Part shown: piece by piece, positions 4,795 to 16,497 of the stretch
Layout: each line of letters opens with the position of its first letter
Position numbering within the stretch: the first letter of the stretch is position 1
NCBI GenBank assembly: GCA_030524545.1
Contig: JAUNGM010000001.1
Location: 1 to 64,000 of the forward strand
Origin: Eubacteriales bacterium
GTDB lineage: Bacteria > Bacillota > Clostridia > Lachnospirales > Lachnospiraceae
Direction: 5' to 3'
DNA: 64,000 nt
Notes under the pieces: model-generated
Database searches by the model: none
What the model saw: the letters and a program-made list of their open reading frames with translations, nothing else
What the model was told of the DNA's origin: nothing
Program-made: the position numbers and the translations under genes

Positions 4795-7107
4795 TTATTT
4801 TCCATGCAGTTTTTTCTTTATTGCATTCATCTGAGCGCACATGCCTTCTGCCATCTCCATAGTCAGGGCCCCGCCGGAAAGGCCTACCAATTTTCTAAGA
4901 GGCATATATTTTGCCATGGAAGCATACATTTGTGCACTGACGGCCTCCTTCTGGCTCTCACTCTGTTCCTGATTCTGGTGCGCTCCCATCGCGCCTCCTG
5001 CACTGGCCATATTTTTCATCATTCCGGCTACGAATTCCGCAAGATCAGGATCTGACATAATGTCGCCCATTGTAGAATCCGGTGTATAAGTGCATGGCAG
5101 CGTCTGTGTGGATTTTACAAAAATACTTTCTCTGCAGGGGATATCCCTGCTGGATTTTCCTGCCAGGATCTCAAATTCTCCGCTTTCCACATGCCAGTCA
5201 TGCAGCTCTGTGTTCCAATAAGCAAATGCCCGTTTTCCCAGCACAAATGTTACCGTCTTTGTCTCGCCCGGTGCCAGCTCTATTTTTTCGAATCCTTTCA
5301 GCTCTTTGCGCGGACGGATCAGCGTACTTTCTTTATCTGCCACATAAAGCTGTACGCACTCTTTTCCTGCAAGCGCTCCTGTATTTGTTACGTCCACAGT
5401 CACAGTTACCGTTTCCGTATCATCCATTTCTTTCCGGTCAACCTGCAGATTCGAATATGCAAAAGTCGTATAGGAAAGCCCGTATCCAAAGGGAAACAGT
5501 ACGTCCATCTCACGATAGTCATAATAGCGGTATCCTACAAAGACCCCTTCCCGGTAAGATACCTTATCCTTTTCTCCCGGGAAATTCAGATAAGACGGAT
5601 TGTCCTGCAGCCTGAGCGGAAAGGATTCTGCAAGCTTTCCGCTTGGATTTACCTTGCCGAAAAGAAGATTTACCTGTGCATTTCCTACGGCCTGACCGCC
5701 AAGATAGCATTCCAGGATTCCCTTCACTTCATCCACCCAGGGCATTTCCACCGGAGCACCATTGTGCAGAAGAACGATGGTATTCGGCTGAACCTTTGCT
5801 ACTTCCCGGATCAGATGATTCTGGTTTTCCGGCATTCTCATATGCACTCTGTCATAGCTTTCTGATTCATAGCTGTCCGGCAGCCCCGCAAAAATAACCG
5901 CCTTATCTGCAGCTTTGGCCGCCCTGACTGCTGCCTCCACCATAGTCTCGTCAATGGCGTCATCCACATCATCAAATCCCTGCTCAAAAACAATGTTGGG
6001 ATATTCGGATGCCGCTTCCAGTGCGGAAATCACGTTCCTGCTGTTCACATGAGAGCTTCCGCCGCCCTGATACCGCGGCTTTTTCGCATACTTTCCGATA
6101 AATGCGACTTTTTCCTGCGCGGAAAGGGGAAGAACGCCTTCGTTTTTCAGAAGCACCATTCCTTCCTCTGCGACTTTTTGAGACATTGCTTCATCTTTCT
6201 CATAGTCAAAAACCGCATTTTCATCCCAGTGTTCCGTAAATCGGAATACAATGCCCAAAATCTCTTCCACACGTTTATCCAGAACTGCCTCATCCAGCTC
6301 CCCATTTCTTACTGCATTTACAATAAAATGATCATTGCTTCCGCCGTCTCCGGGCATTTCCAGATTCATACCGGCTTTCAAAGAAGATACCTTCCTGTCC
6401 ATAGAGCCCCAGTCAGAAACAACATATCCGTCAAATCCCCACTCCTTGCGCAGCACGGTATCCAATAACCACTCATGTGAGGAGGAAAACGTACCATTGA
6501 TAGCATTGTAGGCGCTCATGATTGTCCAGGGTTTGGCTTCCTTTACAACGGTTTCAAAGCCCGACAGATAGATTTCGCGCATGGTCCTCTCATCCGCTTC
6601 CACGGAAACAGACATTCTTCTTGTTTCCTGGTTATTCATGGCAAAATGCTTGGGACTGGTTCCCACATGTTTACTCTGGATTCCCTTTACAAGCGCTGCT
6701 GCCAGTTCCCCTGATACATATGGATCTTCAGACAAATATTCAAAATTCCGACCGCACAGAGGACTGCGTTTGATATTCATTGCAGGCCCCAGCAATACGC
6801 TGACGTTTTCCGCCTGGCATTCCTCTCCGAGACGTGTTCCCTGCTCCTCAAGCAATTCCCGGTTAAAGGTAGAGGCCATGGCACAGCCTGCCGGAAAGCA
6901 GACTGCTTTGATCGCCTCATGGATTCCAAGCTCATCATACTCATCTTCCTGTTTCCGCAGGCCATGAGGGCCATCAGTCAGAAGGGTAACTGGAATTCCC
7001 AGCCTTTCCAGTCCGTTTGCATGCCAGAAATCCTTTCCGGAGCAGAGGCTGGCTTTCTCCGCCAGGGGCATCCGACCGATCAGTTCCTTTATTTTTTCCG
7101 CTGTCAT
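4795..7107 (-). CDS. GH3 beta-glucosidase-like glycoside hydrolase with helical C-terminal tail
   Basis: This 770-residue protein has the full GH3 plan. A (beta/alpha)8 domain carries the nucleophile in YVVSDWG (D232) and the KHFAMNNQET motif near residue 153. A beta-sandwich domain follows (VAFIGKYA to about 510), then a fibronectin-III-like domain starting near YSNLQVDRK. There is no signal peptide, so it acts in the cytoplasm on imported glycosides. GH3 enzymes of this type remove terminal beta-linked glucose or related sugars; the exact sugar cannot be read. Residues about 680-770 form an extra alanine/methionine-rich helical tail that resembles the tail of the GH2 enzyme in the same operon. 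The ATG at 7107 is preferred to an in-frame TTG nine bases upstream. It is the last gene of the operon. Confidence 0.92.
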   Translation of the reverse strand: MTAEKIKELIGRMPLAEKASLCSGKDFWHANGLERLGIPVTLLTDGPHGLRKQEDEYDELGIHEAIKAVCFPAGCAMASTFNRELLEEQGTRLGEECQAENVSVLLGPAMNIKRSPLCGRNFEYLSEDPYVSGELAAALVKGIQSKHVGTSPKHFAMNNQETRRMSVSVEADERTMREIYLSGFETVVKEAKPWTIMSAYNAINGTFSSSHEWLLDTVLRKEWGFDGYVVSDWGSMDRKVSSLKAGMNLEMPGDGGSNDHFIVNAVRNGELDEAVLDKRVEEILGIVFRFTEHWDENAVFDYEKDEAMSQKVAEEGMVLLKNEGVLPLSAQEKVAFIGKYAKKPRYQGGGSSHVNSRNVISALEAASEYPNIVFEQGFDDVDDAIDETMVEAAVRAAKAADKAVIFAGLPDSYESESYDRVHMRMPENQNHLIREVAKVQPNTIVLLHNGAPVEMPWVDEVKGILECYLGGQAVGNAQVNLLFGKVNPSGKLAESFPLRLQDNPSYLNFPGEKDKVSYREGVFVGYRYYDYREMDVLFPFGYGLSYTTFAYSNLQVDRKEMDDTETVTVTVDVTNTGALAGKECVQLYVADKESTLIRPRKELKGFEKIELAPGETKTVTFVLGKRAFAYWNTELHDWHVESGEFEILAGKSSRDIPCRESIFVKSTQTLPCTYTPDSTMGDIMSDPDLAEFVAGMMKNMASAGGAMGAHQNQEQSESQKEAVSAQMYASMAKYMPLRKLVGLSGGALTMEMAEGMCAQMNAIKKKLHGK

Positions 7108-7127
7108 TATGTGCAACCCTTTCCTTT

Positions 7128-8453
7128 CTATCTGTTTGTATAGCTTCCCAATAGCTTAAGGCTTTCCTTCGGATATCTTGTCTGCGTCTTTCTGTCTACG
7201 GCGATCAGCCCGAAGGTCATGGAAAAGCCTTTCTGCCACTCGAAATTATCAAGCAGTGACCAGTACATATAGCCAAGTACCGGAATTCCATCTGCCAGAC
7301 AGCCCACCACCCCTTTCAGCGCTTCCTGAATAAAGGCAGTACGGCGGCTGTCATCACCGGTTCCAACCCCATTTTCCGTAATCATAATAGGCATGTCCAG
7401 TTCTTCATGTACCTTGCGGATGACATGGCCAAGTGCCTGAGGATAATACTCGTAGTCCATCTGTGTCTTCTCCGAATCTTCCGGAACCGGCAGGACTTTA
7501 TCCCGCCCGATCAGGGAGCGTGTATAATTCTGCAATCCGAAAAAGTCATCTTCCCGGATATAGGGAAGATAATGAAGAAACTCATTTTCCCACACCCGTT
7601 TCGCCATCTCCTCACCGCCTTCCACTGCCTGAATGTCATGCAGGGACATGGTGATTCCAATCTTAAGCTCCGGGCGTACCGCTTTCATGGCCTTCCTGGC
7701 TGCCTGATGGGCGCGCATAACCAGGATATCTCCTTCTTTCGTTCTGGCGCTCACAAAGGTCTGAGGCTCTGCAGTTCCGAATATCAGCCTATATTCTTCC
7801 TGCTGTTTCTTCATAGCGTCCCCCATGGACTGCATATTGATTCCCACCTGTACAGAGCTTTCCACAGCCTTTTTCTCTGTATCGGAACCGGCATCCTTCT
7901 GCGTCATCGCTGCCTGCATCTTCTCCATCATCTGGCGTTTGTACCGTTCAGCAATTTCAGCGATCTGAAGTCCCATATTTGCTTCATTGATCGTACTTAC
8001 ATATTGCATCAGATCGCCTAACTGTTCCACTACATATGCACAATAATTTGCAAACGCATCAATAGTTGCCTCATTTTCCCATCCTCCATTGGCAATCAGC
8101 CATTTCGGTGAGGAAAAATGATGCATGGTCACAATCGGTTCAATCCCGTTTTTCCGGCAGCATTCCAGTACCTTACGGTAATGGGCAATCTCACTTTCAT
8201 CATACACGCCCTGCTCCGGCTCGATTCTCGCCCATTCAATAGAAAAGCGATAGGCGTTTAATCCTGCCTCTGCCATAAGCCGGATATCTTCTTCATACCG
8301 GCGATAATGATCCACACACTCCAAGGACGGCTCGTTAAAACTGGTATGCTCCATCTGCTCCATAGCCCAGTAATCGCTGTGGATATTGTTTCCCTCTACC
8401 TGATGGGCCGCCGTCGCTGCCCCGACTAAAAATCCTTTTGGCAATTTACTCAT
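7128..8453 (-). CDS. GH1 family glycoside hydrolase (beta-glucosidase/beta-galactosidase-like)
   Basis: The 441-residue protein starts MSKLPKGFLVGAATAAHQVEG, the classic GH1 opening. It ends with the canonical YWSLLDNFEW near residue 397, and the nucleophile is in MITENG (E360). The acid/base position reads STINEANM (E157), with NEA instead of the usual NEP. It is followed by a roughly 70-residue Lys/Glu/Met-rich, probably helical insertion (about 163-235) before the barrel resumes at FVSARTKEGD. The 8-bp overlap with the GH43 stop and a GGAG upstream fix the start at 8453; longer upstream reading is out of context. No signal peptide is seen, so it is cytoplasmic. It likely cleaves a terminal beta-linked glycoside delivered by the operon's symporter. 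Confidence 0.92.
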   Translation of the reverse strand: MSKLPKGFLVGAATAAHQVEGNNIHSDYWAMEQMEHTSFNEPSLECVDHYRRYEEDIRLMAEAGLNAYRFSIEWARIEPEQGVYDESEIAHYRKVLECCRKNGIEPIVTMHHFSSPKWLIANGGWENEATIDAFANYCAYVVEQLGDLMQYVSTINEANMGLQIAEIAERYKRQMMEKMQAAMTQKDAGSDTEKKAVESSVQVGINMQSMGDAMKKQQEEYRLIFGTAEPQTFVSARTKEGDILVMRAHQAARKAMKAVRPELKIGITMSLHDIQAVEGGEEMAKRVWENEFLHYLPYIREDDFFGLQNYTRSLIGRDKVLPVPEDSEKTQMDYEYYPQALGHVIRKVHEELDMPIMITENGVGTGDDSRRTAFIQEALKGVVGCLADGIPVLGYMYWSLLDNFEWQKGFSMTFGLIAVDRKTQTRYPKESLKLLGSYTNR

Positions 8454-9948
8454 CGTTTTTTCTCCTTTCTGCTTCATCACGCATTCCACCAAGCATGATA
8501 CCGTTTTCATTGATGCCATCCACATAACTGCCAAACGAAAATGACTCAAACTCCATCCTGCCTTCCAATTCAAATCGGATATATAACGCATGTACTCCCG
8601 TCTCTTCCAGCGGCAGAGTCCATTCGCTCCACTCTCCCTTAAGCTCTGCTGTTCTTTCACTTACTGCCGCACCAGCCGGGCTGTCCAGGATTACTTTTAC
8701 GGATACCGCTCCGCTTCCCCTAAGACGCAGCGTCAATGTTTTTGCAGGGGAAAGGTCAAAATATTTATAACCCGCCACAGTTCCATCTGTAATATTGGCA
8801 ATATAGTGCAGGGCATCCGTTTCTTCTGTTCCCACCGGCTCCTCAAAAATATGCGGTTCCTGCTCACGGAGATTTCCCCTTGCAGACAGGCGTCCGTTTT
8901 TCATGGCCGGAGATGTCAGATGGCAGCAATAGCAGGCATTATATCTTCCCTCCGCCGGCAGGGCTCCGTCATTTAAACCACAGCTTGTGATCTCTGCCTG
9001 TCCGAACAATCCGTCCGGACGTATCGGAAGCTTTTCTGCACATCCCTGTCTACTGCTCTCAACGCCATGGGTCTGACGATGATAAAAGATATACCAGTCT
9101 CCGTGAAGCTGTACAAGACCTCCATGTGTATTTCCGTAAGGCATAACCGGACACGGATTTCCATTCAAGCCTATATCTGCATTGGATACCAAAATCCCTT
9201 CATATACAAACCCTTCATCCGGTCTATTGCTCACCGCATAGCAAAGCTCATGACTTTGCTCACTGGAATAGACCAGTACATAACGCCCATTGATCTTCCT
9301 CGGTGAAGATGCTTCATAAAATCCATGGCCCTCAAACGGTGTGCCTTTCGCCTTTTCACTGCCAGGAAGAAGCATTTTGGAACTTCCTTTTATGGTAAGC
9401 ATGTCCGGCTCCAGTTCAAGAACGCTGCTGTACCCTGTCGTCGGTATGGGATAAGGATAATCTGCAGGCGGTACAAACCCAATATACAAAAAGACGCGTC
9501 CATCCTCATCCACCAGCACACCGGGATCAAACATTTTCTCCTGTTCATAAACCTTTCCGTCTGCACATCTTACGCTTCCGTAAAAGGAAAACGGCCCCTG
9601 CGGCCGGTCGCTCACGGCCACACCGCAGGATGCACTGTACTTTGTATTATAATACAGATAATATCTTCCGTCAGTTCCCTGAACTACATCCGGTGCAAAA
9701 AGCCCGTCCTTTTCTCCTTTCATATCCGGAGCGTCTGTGCGCTTATATGCAGCACCGTCACACCGCCAGTCACCAAGGTCATTTAATGGTGCGGACCAGA
9801 CCATATAATCACCGGGACAAAACCCCTGTTCCCCGCCTGAATAATCATGAGAACCATAAACATACAGCCGGTCTCCGAATACGCGGGGCTCTGCATCCGG
9901 AATGTATTCCCACAGGGGAAGGTACGGATTCATCACTACATGATGCAT
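8446..9948 (-). CDS. GH43 family glycoside hydrolase with C-terminal beta-sandwich domain
   Basis: This 500-residue protein starts with NPYLPLWEYIPDAEPRVFGD, the GH43 first blade with the general-base aspartate (D18). FAPDVV near residue 85 holds the second conserved Asp, and GHGFYEASSPRKING the acid glutamate. A five-bladed propeller fills about residues 1-320. The remaining part (about 380-480) resembles a CBM6-like beta-sandwich (YKYFDLSPAKTLTLRLRGSG, then an aromatic-rich end). Family members act mostly as beta-xylosidases or alpha-L-arabinofuranosidases. There is no signal peptide. A strong GGAG site precedes the ATG, the GH2 stop is 10 bp upstream and the GH1 start overlaps its 3' end, so all three are translated together. 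The sugar specificity remains open. Confidence 0.9.
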   Translation of the reverse strand: MHHVVMNPYLPLWEYIPDAEPRVFGDRLYVYGSHDYSGGEQGFCPGDYMVWSAPLNDLGDWRCDGAAYKRTDAPDMKGEKDGLFAPDVVQGTDGRYYLYYNTKYSASCGVAVSDRPQGPFSFYGSVRCADGKVYEQEKMFDPGVLVDEDGRVFLYIGFVPPADYPYPIPTTGYSSVLELEPDMLTIKGSSKMLLPGSEKAKGTPFEGHGFYEASSPRKINGRYVLVYSSEQSHELCYAVSNRPDEGFVYEGILVSNADIGLNGNPCPVMPYGNTHGGLVQLHGDWYIFYHRQTHGVESSRQGCAEKLPIRPDGLFGQAEITSCGLNDGALPAEGRYNACYCCHLTSPAMKNGRLSARGNLREQEPHIFEEPVGTEETDALHYIANITDGTVAGYKYFDLSPAKTLTLRLRGSGAVSVKVILDSPAGAAVSERTAELKGEWSEWTLPLEETGVHALYIRFELEGRMEFESFSFGSYVDGINENGIMLGGMRDEAERRKNDE

Positions 9949-9958
9949 TTTCTTTCTC

Positions 9959-12217
9959 CTATTTTTTAATCCTGTTCAGTTTTTTATTTAACTCTACGAC
10001 CATTTCCGTTGTCACTGCTTTTCCTGCCATCTTCAGCTTTTCCTCCAATGGCATCTGCGCCTGCTTCTTCTTCATTTCCTCCGGCACTGTGGCATTCTTT
10101 GCCACATCCCCGTATGCCTCCACCATTTTTGCATTGATTTCCTCCAAAAGTACTGCAGCCTCCGGATTCGCCTCAATATCGGCAACTTTATCCCGAATGG
10201 AAAAATATCCTGCCGGGGTCTCCATATCCTCTCGGTCGAACCAGTTGACAATTTCTTCCCGCTCCATAATATAATCCGGATTTGGTTCGTCCACCTTGCG
10301 GATATCCATCACATCACTCACCTGGATTCCTTCCACAGGCTCTGCCACAGCTTCGATCCGGTGCTTCCCTGTGATCGGTACCTGGAAACGGAAAATCTTA
10401 TCTCCCTCCTGTGTACCTGCTTCCTTTCCGTCCACCTTCAGAGTAACTTTGCCTAAGTTGGAGTAAACCTTAATCTCTGTAACATCCTCAGAGCGGTCCA
10501 CATAGCGGCGTCCGCACAGATAGACAAACGGCTCTTTGGAAAGATAGGCCTTGTAAATATAGAAGGCATCCTTCTTGATCTTCCTGTCAAAGGTCACCAG
10601 TCCCTTGTGGTTGACTCCCGGCTCTCCGCCATCCTCTCTGCCGTCTGCAGCAAAGTCAAACATATTCCAGACATGCATTGCCCAGATATACGGACGTTTT
10701 TTCCACATTTCCAGCATATGTTCATGATAAACCGCCTGATATTCCTCCGTATAATCTCCCTTTTCCGGTTTCCCGGTCTGATAGCAGATCGTTGCATCCG
10801 CCCCATACTCGGACAGGCCCATGGCAACATCCGGATGCTTTTCATGAAACTCATCAAACCAAAGATCGTTTTCTTCTTTTTCTCCTACATACCATCCATA
10901 GTACAAATTGTAGGACCGGATGTCCGGAAGCTTCACAATCGGGTCTTCTGTACTCAGAATAAATACATTTGCCATTGTCGTAAATCTTGTGGCATCCATC
11001 TTATGACATAGATCATTTAAGATTCTGTGGTTCTCCATCAGATCCTCAGTCACGCCCCCGCTTACGGTGATCTCATTCGACAGTCCCCAGCAGATGATGG
11101 AGGCATGATGATAATTCTGTATTACCAGCTCTTTCATCTGGCTGATGGTGTTTTCCCGTCCGTCCGGCATATGCTGGCTGATATAGGGAATCTCCGCCCA
11201 AACGATCATCCCCGCTTCGTCGCACAGATCATAGAAATACTGGTCATGCTGGTAATGTGCCAGCCGGATGGTATTTGCCCCGATTTCTTTGATCAGTTCC
11301 ATATCCTCTCTGTGCATTTCCGGAGTCAGGGCATTTCCCACACCTTTTCTGTCCTGGTGTCTTGCCACGCCACAGAGCGGATAGCTTTTTCCGTTTAAGA
11401 AAAATCCCTTTTCCGGATCCACGGAGAAGGTCCGGAAGCCTGCCTTTATCTCTGCCGTATCTGCCGGTTTTCCATTACAGATCAGTTCCGCCTTAACCGT
11501 ATAAAGATATGGATCATCAAGGCCGTTCCAAAGATGTACATTTTCAACAGTAAGCTCTGCGTCCAGATAATTGTCCTTCACCTGGGCCTCCGTATCGGCA
11601 ACCACTTTTTTGTCTGCATCCAGAATCGTAAGTACCGCTTTGCTCTCTGAAGAAACATTTTCCGTCCATGCTTCCACTTTTATTTTCCCATCCGGGTTGC
11701 CTAAGGTAACCTGCGGTGTGACTTTTAAGCCATTCCCACCATAGCAGCCCAATGCAAAATGTGCCTTTGACATAGTGATCAGATAAACATCCCTGTAGAT
11801 ACCGCCATAAAATGTAAAGTCTGCTTTCTGCGGATAGACAATGCTGTTCACACTGTTATCAACGGAAACGGCCAGCACATTTTCCTCCTGAAGCTCTTCC
11901 GTAACAGGAACACGGAACGTGGAATAACCGCCCTCATGTCTTGCCAGCTTCTTCCCGTTGACATACACCTCCGCGGTCATTCCCACACCGCGAAATTCCA
12001 GCCATGCTTCCTCATTTTCAAGCAGGTCCGGTTTTGTAAATTTTTTTACATACCAGCAGGTTCCCCGGTAATAATCATTGCCGCCATCCTGCCCATCCAC
12101 GGCATTCCATGTATGGGGCAGTGAAATCTTCTCCCCTTCCGCTGTCACTGCTGCTTCCGGCCCTACATTTTCTTTCAGAAAAATCCAGTTGTCATTTATT
12201 TTTATTTTCTGTCCCAT
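9959..12217 (-). CDS. GH2 family glycoside hydrolase (beta-galactosidase/beta-glucuronidase-like) with helical C-terminal tail
   Basis: The 752-residue enzyme shows the GH2 order. A jelly-roll sugar-binding domain (about 5-150, with LPHTWNAVDG and YYRGTCWY) is followed by an immunoglobulin-like domain and a TIM barrel from about residue 270. The acid/base lies in GLSNEI (E382) and the nucleophile in GLSEYGA (E470). At 752 residues it is much shorter than LacZ and nearer the short GH2 plan. No signal peptide is present. The ATG at 12217 has GGAG nine bases before it; an in-frame TTG 15 bp upstream is less likely. After a further beta-domain, residues about 678-752 form a helical tail similar to that of the GH3 protein encoded in the same operon. 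The substrate is probably a beta-galactoside, glucuronide or related plant glycoside. Confidence 0.92.
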   Translation of the reverse strand: MGQKIKINDNWIFLKENVGPEAAVTAEGEKISLPHTWNAVDGQDGGNDYYRGTCWYVKKFTKPDLLENEEAWLEFRGVGMTAEVYVNGKKLARHEGGYSTFRVPVTEELQEENVLAVSVDNSVNSIVYPQKADFTFYGGIYRDVYLITMSKAHFALGCYGGNGLKVTPQVTLGNPDGKIKVEAWTENVSSESKAVLTILDADKKVVADTEAQVKDNYLDAELTVENVHLWNGLDDPYLYTVKAELICNGKPADTAEIKAGFRTFSVDPEKGFFLNGKSYPLCGVARHQDRKGVGNALTPEMHREDMELIKEIGANTIRLAHYQHDQYFYDLCDEAGMIVWAEIPYISQHMPDGRENTISQMKELVIQNYHHASIICWGLSNEITVSGGVTEDLMENHRILNDLCHKMDATRFTTMANVFILSTEDPIVKLPDIRSYNLYYGWYVGEKEENDLWFDEFHEKHPDVAMGLSEYGADATICYQTGKPEKGDYTEEYQAVYHEHMLEMWKKRPYIWAMHVWNMFDFAADGREDGGEPGVNHKGLVTFDRKIKKDAFYIYKAYLSKEPFVYLCGRRYVDRSEDVTEIKVYSNLGKVTLKVDGKEAGTQEGDKIFRFQVPITGKHRIEAVAEPVEGIQVSDVMDIRKVDEPNPDYIMEREEIVNWFDREDMETPAGYFSIRDKVADIEANPEAAVLLEEINAKMVEAYGDVAKNATVPEEMKKKQAQMPLEEKLKMAGKAVTTEMVVELNKKLNRIKK

Positions 12218-12265
12218 TCGCTCTTTCTCCAATCTTCCAAATTACTTTCTTTTTCAAAAAAATGA

Positions 12266-12309
12266 AAATACTCATTTGTACTTTTTTGCCACAGTACAAA
12301 TGAGTATTT
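12266..12309 (-). promoter_or_regulatory. Perfect 16-bp hairpin between symporter and GH2 genes
   Basis: AAATACTCATTTGTAC and its exact complement are separated by a 12-nt loop. On the minus-strand transcript the stem is followed by TCATTTTTTTG, which resembles an intra-operon attenuator or partial terminator. It lies after the symporter stop and about 50 bp before the GH2 start. It may lower hydrolase expression relative to the transporter, or protect the symporter mRNA 3' end. Confidence 0.7.
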
Positions 12310-12356
12310 CTGTTGCTATGTACCGTATGCCGGTCATATTCAGGAAAAAAACAATC

Positions 12357-13832
12357 TTATTTTGCTGCCGCTTTCTTTTCTGCAATGCTCTTCTGCACTT
12401 CGATCATCTTCTCTCTGCTCAGTGTACAATTCTTCATGCTGAGAAGCGTGCATACCCAGCCAAGGATCGGGAATCCGCAATACAGTACCACCGTCATGAT
12501 TCGTACGCCTGTTGTCAGAGGATCGCCCTGCTGCGGTGCAGTACTTGTATAGCCGATGATACCAATCAGCGCAGTTGCTATGGTTGCACCGAATGCAGAA
12601 ATAAACTTGTCAATAAAGCTGTAGGTTGCAGATACAACAGCCGGCATATACTTTCCTGTACGATGCAGTTCATAGTCGATCACATCCATACGCATGGCAG
12701 TTGTAGCAGTTGAAACAACCATCTTGGTTGCTCTGTCGCCAAACATCAGAAGGAAGAAAATCGCCGACGGTACGATGGCTACTGTAATCTTTGTAGTATC
12801 GGAGAACAGAAGGAAAAGTGCAAAGATTGCATTCACTCCGATACAAACCCATGTCCATGTAACCATTGTTTTTTTGTTTCCATGTTTTCCTGCAAGACGT
12901 GCGCCAATGATCGCAAAGATAATGGAAGGGAGCATGGCAACTGTAGAAATCACTGTGGAGATTGACATATTTCCGATCAGGATTCCGAACAACATCGTTG
13001 TAACAACAGCGGCACCGCCGATCGTCTGTGTCAGCTTGTCCGAGCAGGCAGCGATCATATATCTCTGCAGTTCTTTATTGTCTTTGATCAATGACCACAT
13101 ATCCTGGAAGGAAACCTTTTCCTCCTCACCCTTGCCATTGGAAATTCCTGCAAAATTTTCCGGTTTATCAAATTCTGCCATACCAACACAGGAAAGTACT
13201 TCAAAAACAAAAGCGACTGACACTACCAGAAGATTCAGGGATGACAAAAACGGAATGTCGATCACGTTATCGCATTTCGGCAAAATAACTGTCATGGAAA
13301 CCATGGAAATGACCATTGGTGTCAGATAAGAATAAATGGTTGACCATACGCTTAATGCAGGTCTCTGTTTCGGGTCATTCGTCATTACAGGGCCAACCAT
13401 AGACATTGCAATACCAGCCAGCGTATATCCGACAATGTATACCATGTAACACACAATAAAGAAAACCAGACCTGACACACCGCTTAAATGTCCTGCACCC
13501 CAGTTACACATAGCAGTGGTTGCAAGAGCCATAATGCCCCACCCTATCAGCAGAAAGATACGTATCTTACCGAATCGGGTATTTACCCGTTCAATGATAA
13601 AAGCGCAGACCGGATCTGTAATACCGTCAAAAATACGGGATGCCGTCATGATCACACCAGTCACAGCCACTAAAATGCCATAACCGCTGTTGCCAATATA
13701 GGTGGCATAGCCCATCAAAACATAAAAGCACATAGGTGCAGCAGTACAAAGCTGCGATAATGCGATCTGCCAAAGCTTGGCTCTTCTGTACATCACACCG
13801 TCCTGTTCGGAACTGGAAACTCGTTTACTCAT
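12357..13832 (-). CDS. GPH-family (glycoside-pentoside-hexuronide:cation) sugar symporter, MFS fold
   Basis: This 491-residue membrane protein begins MSKRVSSSEQDG and has about twelve hydrophobic segments. The motifs VTGVIMTASRIFDGITDPVCAFIIERVNTRFGKIR (given here only as the family landmark near residues 75-110) and DYELHRTGKY near 415 are GPH signatures; the first contains the cation-site aspartates. Such carriers import oligosaccharides or glycosides with Na+ or H+. It is the first gene of the hydrolase operon and presumably supplies the intact substrate that the four cytoplasmic hydrolases cut. GGAG nine bases before 13832 sets the start; an in-frame GTG upstream lacks context. A divergent AraC gene with candidate operators lies just upstream. 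Confidence 0.9.
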   Translation of the reverse strand: MSKRVSSSEQDGVMYRRAKLWQIALSQLCTAAPMCFYVLMGYATYIGNSGYGILVAVTGVIMTASRIFDGITDPVCAFIIERVNTRFGKIRIFLLIGWGIMALATTAMCNWGAGHLSGVSGLVFFIVCYMVYIVGYTLAGIAMSMVGPVMTNDPKQRPALSVWSTIYSYLTPMVISMVSMTVILPKCDNVIDIPFLSSLNLLVVSVAFVFEVLSCVGMAEFDKPENFAGISNGKGEEEKVSFQDMWSLIKDNKELQRYMIAACSDKLTQTIGGAAVVTTMLFGILIGNMSISTVISTVAMLPSIIFAIIGARLAGKHGNKKTMVTWTWVCIGVNAIFALFLLFSDTTKITVAIVPSAIFFLLMFGDRATKMVVSTATTAMRMDVIDYELHRTGKYMPAVVSATYSFIDKFISAFGATIATALIGIIGYTSTAPQQGDPLTTGVRIMTVVLYCGFPILGWVCTLLSMKNCTLSREKMIEVQKSIAEKKAAAK

Positions 13833-14090: not shown

Positions 14091-15284
14091 ATGGATACCG
14101 CATTATTTTCAATGCTCCTGCGCAACCTTCTTCAGGTCAATGTCCTCTGTACGGAAACGGAAAAACATGCTTTGCGGCTTTTTGAAGAACAATATTGTTT
14201 TCATGAAGAACTGCAGCCTATGTTCACCGCCCAGGCTCTGGCTTATCTGATGGATTCCATGCAGGAAAATATTTATTATGAAATTACGGACACGCTGAAT
14301 GTCTGCCTGCTCTTTTTCCGCTTTCAAGGTCAGACTTTTCTTGCCGGGCCGTATGTGAAAACAGAGTATGAAGAACAAAAAATGCAGGTAGTTCTTGCAG
14401 AAAACAAAATTCCTGCTTCCTATGCGATTTCTTTAAAATTATACTACACTGCTTTTCCTTTATTAAGTATTTACCACATACAAAAAACGATTTCCGCATG
14501 TATCAATGCTTTCAGTGGGGCTCCCGTTGAATTTTCCTATCGGAGACTCCATGGTTTTCACGAAAAGATCAATCCTGCTCCTTTATTTAGGACGGAACCC
14601 ATTGATCACAATGAATTGTACCGCAGATATGATATCGAAAATCATTTCCTGCAAATGATCGAGACCGGAAATGTAGAAGAAGTATTGACCGCCTATGATG
14701 AAATAAGCGCACGGTCATCCTTTGACACCCAGCCTTATCTTGTCAGTGTACAGCAAAATCCTTTTTCCGGTCTTTCCATTGTCCGTGCTCTTGCGCGAAA
14801 GGCAGCGGAAAACAGCGGTTTATCCGTAATCACAATTGATGAGATCACCCAAAAGGCTGTCCAGCTTATGAACTCCTCATCAAGCTATCATGAACAGAAG
14901 AACATCACACGGAATATGCTTGTAGAATTAGCCGAGGCGGTCCGCAGCCATCTGCTGGACAGTGCCGATTTTTCTGCGCCGATCCGGAAAGTAGTGGAAT
15001 ATCTTTCCCTGAATTTCAGCCAGGAAATTTCGCTGTCATATCTGGCAGATATGGTCCACCTGTCTGAATCCCACCTGTCAAAGAGCTTCAAAAAAGAAAC
15101 CGGAAAAACCATCTTCGCTTACATTGCCAGTCTTCGCTGCAGGCATGCGGCAAAGATGCTGAAGGAAACAGAGTTGTCGATTCAGGAAATCAGCAATTAT
15201 GTGGGGTATCCGGATAACAACTACTTTGTCAAGGTATTCAAAAAACAATATGGGGTAACGCCGTCCGTCTTCCGGTCATCCTGA
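14091..15284 (+). CDS. AraC-family transcriptional regulator of the carbohydrate locus
   Basis: This 397-residue protein has a C-terminal AraC/XylS DNA-binding domain (about residues 295-395) with two helix-turn-helix units. The first is around ISLSYLADMVHLSESHLSKSF and the second around SIQEISNYVGYPDNNYFVKVFKK, ending in the usual GVTPSVFR. The N-terminal 280 residues form a large, poorly conserved sensing region with no obvious cupin motif, so the ligand is unknown. CAAGGAG precedes the ATG. It is transcribed away from the symporter-hydrolase operon and is the most likely controller of that operon. A second target may be the convergent phosphotriesterase-like gene, because both upstream regions carry the same spaced half-sites. 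Confidence 0.93.
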   Translation: MDTALFSMLLRNLLQVNVLCTETEKHALRLFEEQYCFHEELQPMFTAQALAYLMDSMQENIYYEITDTLNVCLLFFRFQGQTFLAGPYVKTEYEEQKMQVVLAENKIPASYAISLKLYYTAFPLLSIYHIQKTISACINAFSGAPVEFSYRRLHGFHEKINPAPLFRTEPIDHNELYRRYDIENHFLQMIETGNVEEVLTAYDEISARSSFDTQPYLVSVQQNPFSGLSIVRALARKAAENSGLSVITIDEITQKAVQLMNSSSSYHEQKNITRNMLVELAEAVRSHLLDSADFSAPIRKVVEYLSLNFSQEISLSYLADMVHLSESHLSKSFKKETGKTIFAYIASLRCRHAAKMLKETELSIQEISNYVGYPDNNYFVKVFKKQYGVTPSVFRSS

Positions 15285-15399: not shown

Positions 15400-16497
15400 T
15401 CAATATGCAAGAATTCTTGCGGGATTCTCAACGGTCAGCTTTGGTATCGCATCTCCTCTGCCATACTTTTGAAGCATGCTCAATCCGTATTCGATAAATC
15501 TTGTACAGCCATAGCCGCCATAGCTGCGGCTTGCTATTTTGCTGGAAAAGTCATTGCCAAGTGTTATCTGTGATGCATATCCCAGATCAATCAGTGTGAT
15601 CAATGCTTTGACACGATCATAATCTTCTGCCGCAAAGAACTGGAGATTGGTGATGGGCATTCCCCATGTATCCAATCCAATATTCACTCCCAGATCAAGA
15701 AGCGCTTTGTGCATATCAAGATTAATATTTCTTCCTGTCTCCATATTCTGCATGTAGTCATCCACTTTTACACTGCAGGCAAGGCGGCTGTCCATATGAC
15801 AGATCAGAATACGTCCTGCATCTACACCATAGTTCTCTATCACCATTTTGACAACACGGACGATTTCTTCGCCCGGGATCGTGGGATCTGTGTGAATATG
15901 CAGCGACATTCCTGTTTCTGCTGATAATCTTGCACATGCGCGTATACCATCGATTTCCGCTTCATGAATCCCATTGGGGCCATACGTGGCAAGCGCAGCT
16001 TTCAGGATACCGGGCTTAACATCTGTTCCATCAATCCCTTCTTCGATTTCTTTTTTGAAGGTCTGATATAACACTTCCTCATCCTTGCCCAATAATTCTG
16101 CCGGTCTTGAAATTGCTGTGTAGATGCCCGTTGCGCAAATGATATTTAAACCGCTGCGCTTTGAAAATTCTTTCAGTTTATCTCCGTTTCCACGGATGCC
16201 GATCGGGCCGGGATCCACCACGGAGCATCCGCCGGCTGCTTTAAAATAACTATATTCCTTCAGCAGATAATCCATATTATCAATAATCTGCAGCTCTTTA
16301 CTCATAAGATACGTACCGGATTTCAAAAATCCATAGTTCTCCGGTACAAACGCCAGCATTTCGTCCGTTACTCCCGGAAACATATTCTTCATAAACTGGC
16401 CTGCAACACTCAGATCAAGGAACGTATGATCATGCATACTCGTAAGGCCAAGTTCTTCAGGTGCAATATCTCCCAGCACTGTTCTGATTTTTTTCAT
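15400..16497 (-). CDS. Phosphotriesterase-family metal-dependent hydrolase (probable lactonase/esterase)
   Basis: The 365-residue protein has the ligands of a binuclear-metal amidohydrolase of the phosphotriesterase family. These are MHDH near residues 21-24, the bridging-lysine candidate in GILKAALATYG, a His in LHIHTD, a His in ICHMDSR and the final Asp in TLGNDFSS. Family members are mainly lactonases, so hydrolysis of a lactone or ester is more likely than a true organophosphate. There is no signal peptide. It stands alone on the minus strand between convergent AraC and upstream TetR genes. Its upstream region shares the GTTAGAATAAAA block with the hydrolase operon, which suggests that it is induced together with the sugar genes and may open a sugar lactone. 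That link is inference. Confidence 0.88.
   Translation of the reverse strand: MKKIRTVLGDIAPEELGLTSMHDHTFLDLSVAGQFMKNMFPGVTDEMLAFVPENYGFLKSGTYLMSKELQIIDNMDYLLKEYSYFKAAGGCSVVDPGPIGIRGNGDKLKEFSKRSGLNIICATGIYTAISRPAELLGKDEEVLYQTFKKEIEEGIDGTDVKPGILKAALATYGPNGIHEAEIDGIRACARLSAETGMSLHIHTDPTIPGEEIVRVVKMVIENYGVDAGRILICHMDSRLACSVKVDDYMQNMETGRNINLDMHKALLDLGVNIGLDTWGMPITNLQFFAAEDYDRVKALITLIDLGYASQITLGNDFSSKIASRSYGGYGCTRFIEYGLSMLQKYGRGDAIPKLTVENPARILAY

Follow-up and report, generated by a model that had tools for sequence, protein, structure and literature searches.

A portable helical mini-domain shared by the tails of unrelated glycoside hydrolases and by other enzymes of Clostridia and some other Bacillota

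Two glycoside hydrolases of different families, a GH2 and a GH3 enzyme encoded in one operon of the 64,000-nucleotide stretch of DNA that was analysed here (the window), end in homologous helical tails, and we regard it as nearly certain that a single module is common to both. On balance, we lean towards an explanation in which the two tails represent a single portable mini-domain, roughly 65-90 residues long, that acts in cis. The mini-domain is predicted to consist of five short helices in what appears to be a DUF1858-like arrangement, where helices 2 and 3 are separated by a loop that can take up insertions. At either terminus, it has been joined to several unrelated enzymes, mostly of glycoside breakdown, in the Clostridia and some other Bacillota; once fused to an enzyme family, it was mostly inherited along with it.

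The GH2 enzyme, P0002 (9959-12217, minus strand; Pfam GH2 domains), was placed in the group of FMN-type beta-glucuronidases. The list of its PDB matches was headed by 7kgz, 6mvg, 8ges, 8get, 6mvh and 6mvf, which we take to be FMN-binding gut beta-glucuronidases, and the alignment with 7kgz (956.6 bits) runs to the end. The protein has the motifs NHKG at residue 536, which fits the N-x-K motif of glucuronidases, as well as SNEIT at 380 and SEYGA at 469, which we take to be the catalytic Glu sites. No curated NCBIfam equivalog was attained, the LacZ4 glucuronidase model giving 563.5 bits, which is below its cut-off of 950. Judged by its sequence, the enzyme is a close relative of the FMN-binding beta-glucuronidases and would belong to their class, with FMN binding and glucuronide cleavage predicted. 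The GH3 enzyme, P0005 (minus strand; Pfam GH3 N, GH3 C and Fn3-like domains), resembles BglB and alpha-arabinopyranosidases; its span of 4795-7107 assumes that the start is the ATG preceded by a plausible ribosome site. Its closest PDB entry was 7ms2, and it also attained no curated NCBIfam equivalog. The model NF041610 matched it with 809 bits, against a cut-off of 1300, over residues 14-722, and thus into the tail. An N-terminal MxLEEK helix of the GH3, which is also found in L176 (L numbers denote fetched loci), matched the tail profile weakly and was taken as a chance match.

The operon also encodes a GH43 (8446-9948, minus strand; Pfam GH43), which the module profiles did not match, and a GH1 (P0004; 7128-8453, minus strand; Pfam GH1), for which the module profile gave only 2.4 bits. 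In the GH1, a Met/Gln-rich stretch of about 80 residues (about residues 163-243, within the region of about 155-243) follows the sequence TINEAN, where GH1 enzymes usually show a TFNEP-like motif. In L121, L123 and L131, the surroundings of the tailed GH2 genes include GH1 genes that are 59-65% identical to that of the window. Upstream of the GH2 lies a gene for a GPH-type symporter (12357-13832, minus strand; Pfam MFS_2), which the NCBIfam model TIGR00792 matched with 132 bits, below its cut-off of 231, followed by a divergent gene for an AraC-type regulator (14091-15284, plus strand; Pfam HTH_18) and, past it, a phosphotriesterase-family gene (15400-16497, minus strand; Pfam). Between the symporter and GH2 genes, at 12255-12310, an inverted repeat, ACTCATTTGTAC...GTACAAATGAGT, followed by a T-rich sequence was seen by eye, and it is possibly an attenuator or a terminator. 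The same genome contains a second, paralogous operon (L123; G000:C41:236000-250948), whose GPH symporter, tailed GH2, GH1 and AraC regulator are 71.5%, 64%, 65% and 61% identical to those of the window, and where a tail-less GH2 adjoins the paralogous genes.

The tail of the GH3 comprises residues 676-766 of P0005 (4810-5082, minus strand) and that of the GH2 residues 672-752 of P0002 (9962-10204, minus strand). The motifs quoted in the preliminary description were found verbatim in both proteins; the order is MGDIMSDPDLAEF ... MPLRKLVGLSGGALTMEM ... MNAIKKK in the GH3 tail and VADIEANPEAAVL ... MPLEEKLKMAGKAVTTEM ... LNRIKK in the GH2 tail. When the whole GH2 was compared with the whole GH3 using BLASTP, the top match was that of the tails (24% identity over 86 columns, E 2e-4). 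Among 120 genomes of the same family, relatives at E<=1e-60 were found in 29 for the GH2 and in 60 for the GH3. The GH2 tail alignment had 24 rows, i.e., all of the tail-bearing loci among 30 that were fetched, and the 22 GH3 rows were chosen by eye from 30 loci, with seven loci of a longer variant and one tail-less locus excluded; two of these 22, L049 and L057, fell short of E 0.01 with the later module profiles. Comparison of the two alignments using hhalign gave a probability of 97.8% (P 1.2e-12, 80 columns). With the GH3-tail HMM, 18 of the 24 GH2 tails outscored every one of 960 shuffles, and with the GH2-tail HMM, 16 of the 22 GH3 tails outscored all 880. As a control, the tail profiles of the GH2, GH3 and esterase were set against 90-residue segments in 93 comparisons, and the maximum was 2.1%; the segments came from six families, of which four were unrelated and two consisted of GH2 and GH3 regions outside the tail, while three more were skipped for having fewer than five relatives each. 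The window GH3 tail was matched at 1.3e-25 by a profile that includes it among its own rows. The longer GH3 tail, with a MPFRGIAKMTGG-type second half (L054-L056, L058, L060-L062, L271, L283, L291, L305), reached 94% against the GH3 tail profile and 3% against the GH2 tail profile, and only three of its seven tails scored above the best of 280 shuffles with the GH2-tail HMM. A further variant (L273-L275, L277-L280, L289) reached 98% against the longer one and 28% against the GH3 tails.

The predicted structure agrees with this relationship. The AlphaFold2 model of the window GH2 tail (pLDDT 87.3) has five helices, and its best PDB matches were the C-terminal tails of two GH3 beta-glucosidases, BglB (7ms2) and PSTG1 (8j9f, 9lql), which are also homologous in sequence to the window GH3 tail. 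The claim that two different enzymes carry a homologous helical tail was thus borne out by the profile comparison, the controls and the model. In BglB and PSTG1, the tail was seen only within a GH3, and the 2013 paper on PSTG does not use the term C-terminal in its main text. In its predicted fold, the module also appears to resemble the small DUF1858 (PF08984) proteins 2k53 and 2k5e. Membership of DUF1858 by sequence was rejected: nine modules gave no Pfam match to it at E up to 10, hhalign reached 28% at best and otherwise <=13%, and the HCxGCP cysteine motif that is present in nearly all of the DUF1858 sequences examined was absent from the module sequences examined. Within the FMN-type beta-glucuronidases, the module corresponds to the last ~80 residues of their C-terminal domain. 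In the available portions of PMC8748916 and PMC9377255, this domain is treated for the FMN beta-glucuronidases alone, as an unresolved part, and a kinship with modules of GH3, GH13, GH43, GH78, esterase or SDR proteins is not raised.

The preliminary description had presented the shared tail as a feature of this locus, and the surveys contradict this. At E<0.01, with profiles that were built partly from the same loci, 24 of the 30 GH2 loci that were fetched and 27 of the 30 GH3 loci have the tail, and the profile search that it had proposed recovered five further enzyme families. At E<=0.1, profile A1 detected the module, of about 70 residues (about 65-90), in 75 of 200 genomes from the same family; for the class, the tallies were 57 of 391 genomes at E<=0.01 (A2) and 103 of 391 at E<=0.05 (A3), and for the phylum 17 of 398 at E<=0.01 (A6). 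All of these tallies are upper bounds because they include chance matches, and because those of A1, A2 and A3 count many further weak matches, with 20 places opened in one round. Nine matches (L176, L178, L179, L180, L181, L187, L238, L362 and L364) were dropped as probably due to chance and are still counted in the A2, A3 and A6 tallies. The hosts given here are those whose matches were opened individually and checked with Pfam. Apart from GH2 and GH3, where the module is C-terminal and occurs twice in the GH3 of L234, it is C-terminal in alpha/beta-hydrolase esterases of the Pfam family BD-FAE (L100, L101, L104, L138, L170) and in GH78 rhamnosidases (L232, L233), N-terminal in GH13 (L172, L228, L274) and GH43 (L120, L237) enzymes, and present in SDR dehydrogenases at both ends (L177) or at the N-terminus (L350/L370). 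The esterase tail is an addition, since the closest solved esterase, 4q3k (260 residues), was matched by residues 1-239 of the query only. Four GH2 relatives stop directly before the tail. Named carriers are Acetivibrio straminisolvens and, more weakly, Lactobacillus colini; a scan of IMG/VR gave no GH2 relatives. In L370, the SDR gene with the N-terminal module (6586-7611) adjoins a weak GH5 match, an AraC regulator and two ABC-transport permeases.

The module also exists as standalone ORFs of 68-75 residues. Seven distinct ones came from one survey, where L223 is a near-duplicate of L222, and one more from another. Of the eight standalone modules of L221, L222, L223, L224, L225, L226, L227 and L351, five, when read from ATG, start with M(D/N)LRN.QIT, and L221 and L225 have neighbouring genes in common (by eye). 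The seven standalone ORFs that were scanned had no Pfam or NCBIfam match near the cut-off, and the matches of tails and of standalone copies to PHROGs, Pfam and NCBIfam were all weak, with E of 0.029 or higher; the module has no model of its own in the Pfam and NCBIfam libraries scanned. One standalone copy had TAL-effector-repeat matches, at E 0.007 or weaker, that start at its residue 34, and these were taken as due to chance.

The comparison of the host groups showed that the esterase tails are homologous to those of the GH2 (98.4%) and the GH3 (96.5%). The standalone profile (eight rows) gave 94 against the GH2, 96 against the GH3 and 95 against the esterase tails, and only 5.9 against the longer GH3 variant. 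The SDR profile (four rows) gave 95 against each of the GH2, GH3 and esterase tails. The L220 row is present in both the standalone and the SDR set. Based on these profiles, the GH2, GH3, esterase, standalone and SDR modules can be considered one family. The scores of the remaining groups were mixed, and so their copies are likely but less secure members. The GH13 profile gave 91% against the GH3, 61% against the GH2, 63% against the standalone and 48% against the esterase modules. The GH43 profile, with two rows only, gave 95% against the GH2, 96% against the standalone, 35% against the GH3 and 15% against the GH13 modules. The GH78 profile, with three rows, gave 95% against the GH2 (71 columns), 92% against the GH3 (only 29 columns) and 28% against the GH13 modules, and its single-protein matches ranged from 1e-11 (L232) down to 0.004 (L233).

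The phylogenetic tree of 65 modules, whose few columns leave the deep forks unsure and from which L049, L057 and L059 (three of the 22 GH3 rows) had been left out beforehand, grouped the tails by host. The 24 GH2 rows were placed together at 97/91, and so were the 19 GH3 rows at 98/91; an additional GH2 (L186) and an additional GH3 (L234) fell elsewhere. The GH2 and GH3 tails of the window were not paired, and the esterase tails did not form one group, that of L104 being placed with the GH13 at 89/81. An SDR copy was placed with the standalone L227 at 99/74. The standalone copy of L220, whose gene immediately follows that of an SDR, joined the module at the C-terminus of the L177 SDR at 99/86; the L220 pair is a split counterpart of the L177 fusion. 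As the tails group by host enzyme and not by operon, the sharing must be old. A tail that is private to this operon was rejected by both the genome surveys and the tree, and no sign of a recent exchange inside the operon was seen in the tree, from which the three rows named above are missing.

With regard to function, the most direct information comes from the FMN-binding beta-glucuronidases. According to the available part of PMC8748916, their C-terminal domain is mobile and unresolved in crystals. In that of PMC9377255, an Rh2 enzyme that ended after residue 644 lost its activity eightfold in the reactivation of mycophenolate, and in models the domain lies outside the active site, where it could serve as a gate. 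The available parts of PMC10318527 and PMC11071339 make no mention of the tail. Because the module is the last part of the domain to which the activity loss and the gate models refer, an action in cis near the active site is favoured, and we give this placement about even chances. Tethered by a linker, the module may pack on its own enzyme or on a neighbouring subunit beside the mouth of the active site, where it may shape the site for bulky aglycones as well as the oligomer. In the operon of the window, it would tune the beta-glucuronidase and the beta-glucosidase or arabinosidase that act on imported glycosides.

A different role, which we consider possible though rather doubtful, is that of a docking domain that acts in trans; it would gather many enzymes of glycoside breakdown on one another or on a shared partner in the cytoplasm, and the standalone proteins of 68-75 residues would be connectors or competitors. 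The attachment of the module to unrelated enzymes at either end, the double copies in the L234 GH3 and the L177 SDR, the existence of standalone copies and the L220 copy that follows an SDR gene and groups with L177 would all fit this role, as would the GH2 with a C-terminal and the GH43 with an N-terminal copy in L120 and the tailed GH3 and tailed esterase found together in L100 and L138. However, two module genes per locus are uncommon. By the cut-off used, a second one was present in 2 of 20 loci in L120-L139, which are of 9.5-20 kb and were chosen around a module gene, and in none of the 37 loci of L240-L319 that have a module gene; beyond these sets, L100, with its GH3 and esterase, L118, L186 and the window itself also have two. 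Moreover, no glycosidase gene was seen to adjoin the standalone copies (by eye, with Pfam on three L220 neighbours), no conserved partner was found, and the published truncation effect was measured on purified enzyme. It is also conceivable, though unlikely, that glycoside catabolism in Clostridia and their relatives relies on an assembly code in the cytoplasm, made up of these mobile helical mini-domains, in which glycosidases, esterases and sugar-locus dehydrogenases carry a plug at either end and free copies and double-ended enzymes are the connectors; if true, such a code would be a soluble, intracellular counterpart of the cellulosome.

Slightly less probable still is a passive stabiliser, i.e., a module that takes no part in binding or catalysis and does no more than protect or solubilise the terminus, C or N, at which it sits. 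Its variable linker and low-complexity loop, the four GH2 relatives that naturally have no tail and the mobility of the domain in the crystals described in the available part of PMC8748916 are compatible with this. On the other hand, the tail is found in most of the fetched loci (24 of 30 GH2 and 27 of 30 GH3), its motif is kept across several enzyme families, and activity was lost when the domain was removed, as reported in the accessible portion of PMC9377255.

The preliminary description had proposed that the tails join the GH2 and GH3 of the operon or dock them on the symporter, and we now judge this improbable. The two enzymes do share an operon, most of the GH2 loci counted below have a GPH-like gene, the GH3 P0005 is the best match of the P0002 tail among 22, and GH2/GH3 tail pairs from the same genome score slightly higher than others (11 vs 517 pairs, one-sided p 0.009), although these pairs are not independent and the difference is a weak hint for pairing, too little to carry the claim. 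The window pair, however, ranked only 11 of 528, the tree showed no grouping by operon, second module genes are as rare as described above, and the GH43 and GH1 of the operon have no module. As for the symporter, a manual count in L120-L139 found a GPH-like gene in 13 of 14 GH2 loci, three of which were assigned to GH2 from the tail alone, but in none of the six GH3 loci; the symporter therefore follows the GH2 and not the tail. In the related loci that were fetched, a GPH-like gene accompanied 2 of the 29 tailed GH3 ORFs, compared with 11 of the 56 GH3-like ORFs that lack the full tail. Finally, that the tails are unrelated helices alike through chance or composition is hardly credible, even though their pairwise identity is only 24% and both, judged by eye, have many Met, Ala, Glu and Lys residues, given the profile comparisons and shuffles, the 93 controls and the match of the GH2-tail model to solved GH3 tails.

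Mobile helical modules attached to enzymes are an already known kind, and in the open-licence literature searched, which covers few subscription journals, none of the papers listed describes this module as shared. A profile of it could let genome annotation mark a module that had no Pfam or NCBIfam model of its own in the scans run; the whole-enzyme model NF041610 extends into the GH3 tail. Several unrelated enzymes are now available in which one common function can be tested, and the crystal coordinates of the GH3 enzymes supply both a fold template and a clean deletion boundary for the beta-glucuronidase tail. The drug-relevant and so far unexplained C-terminal domain of the gut beta-glucuronidases becomes a member of a wider family of modules that has coordinates in GH3 crystals.
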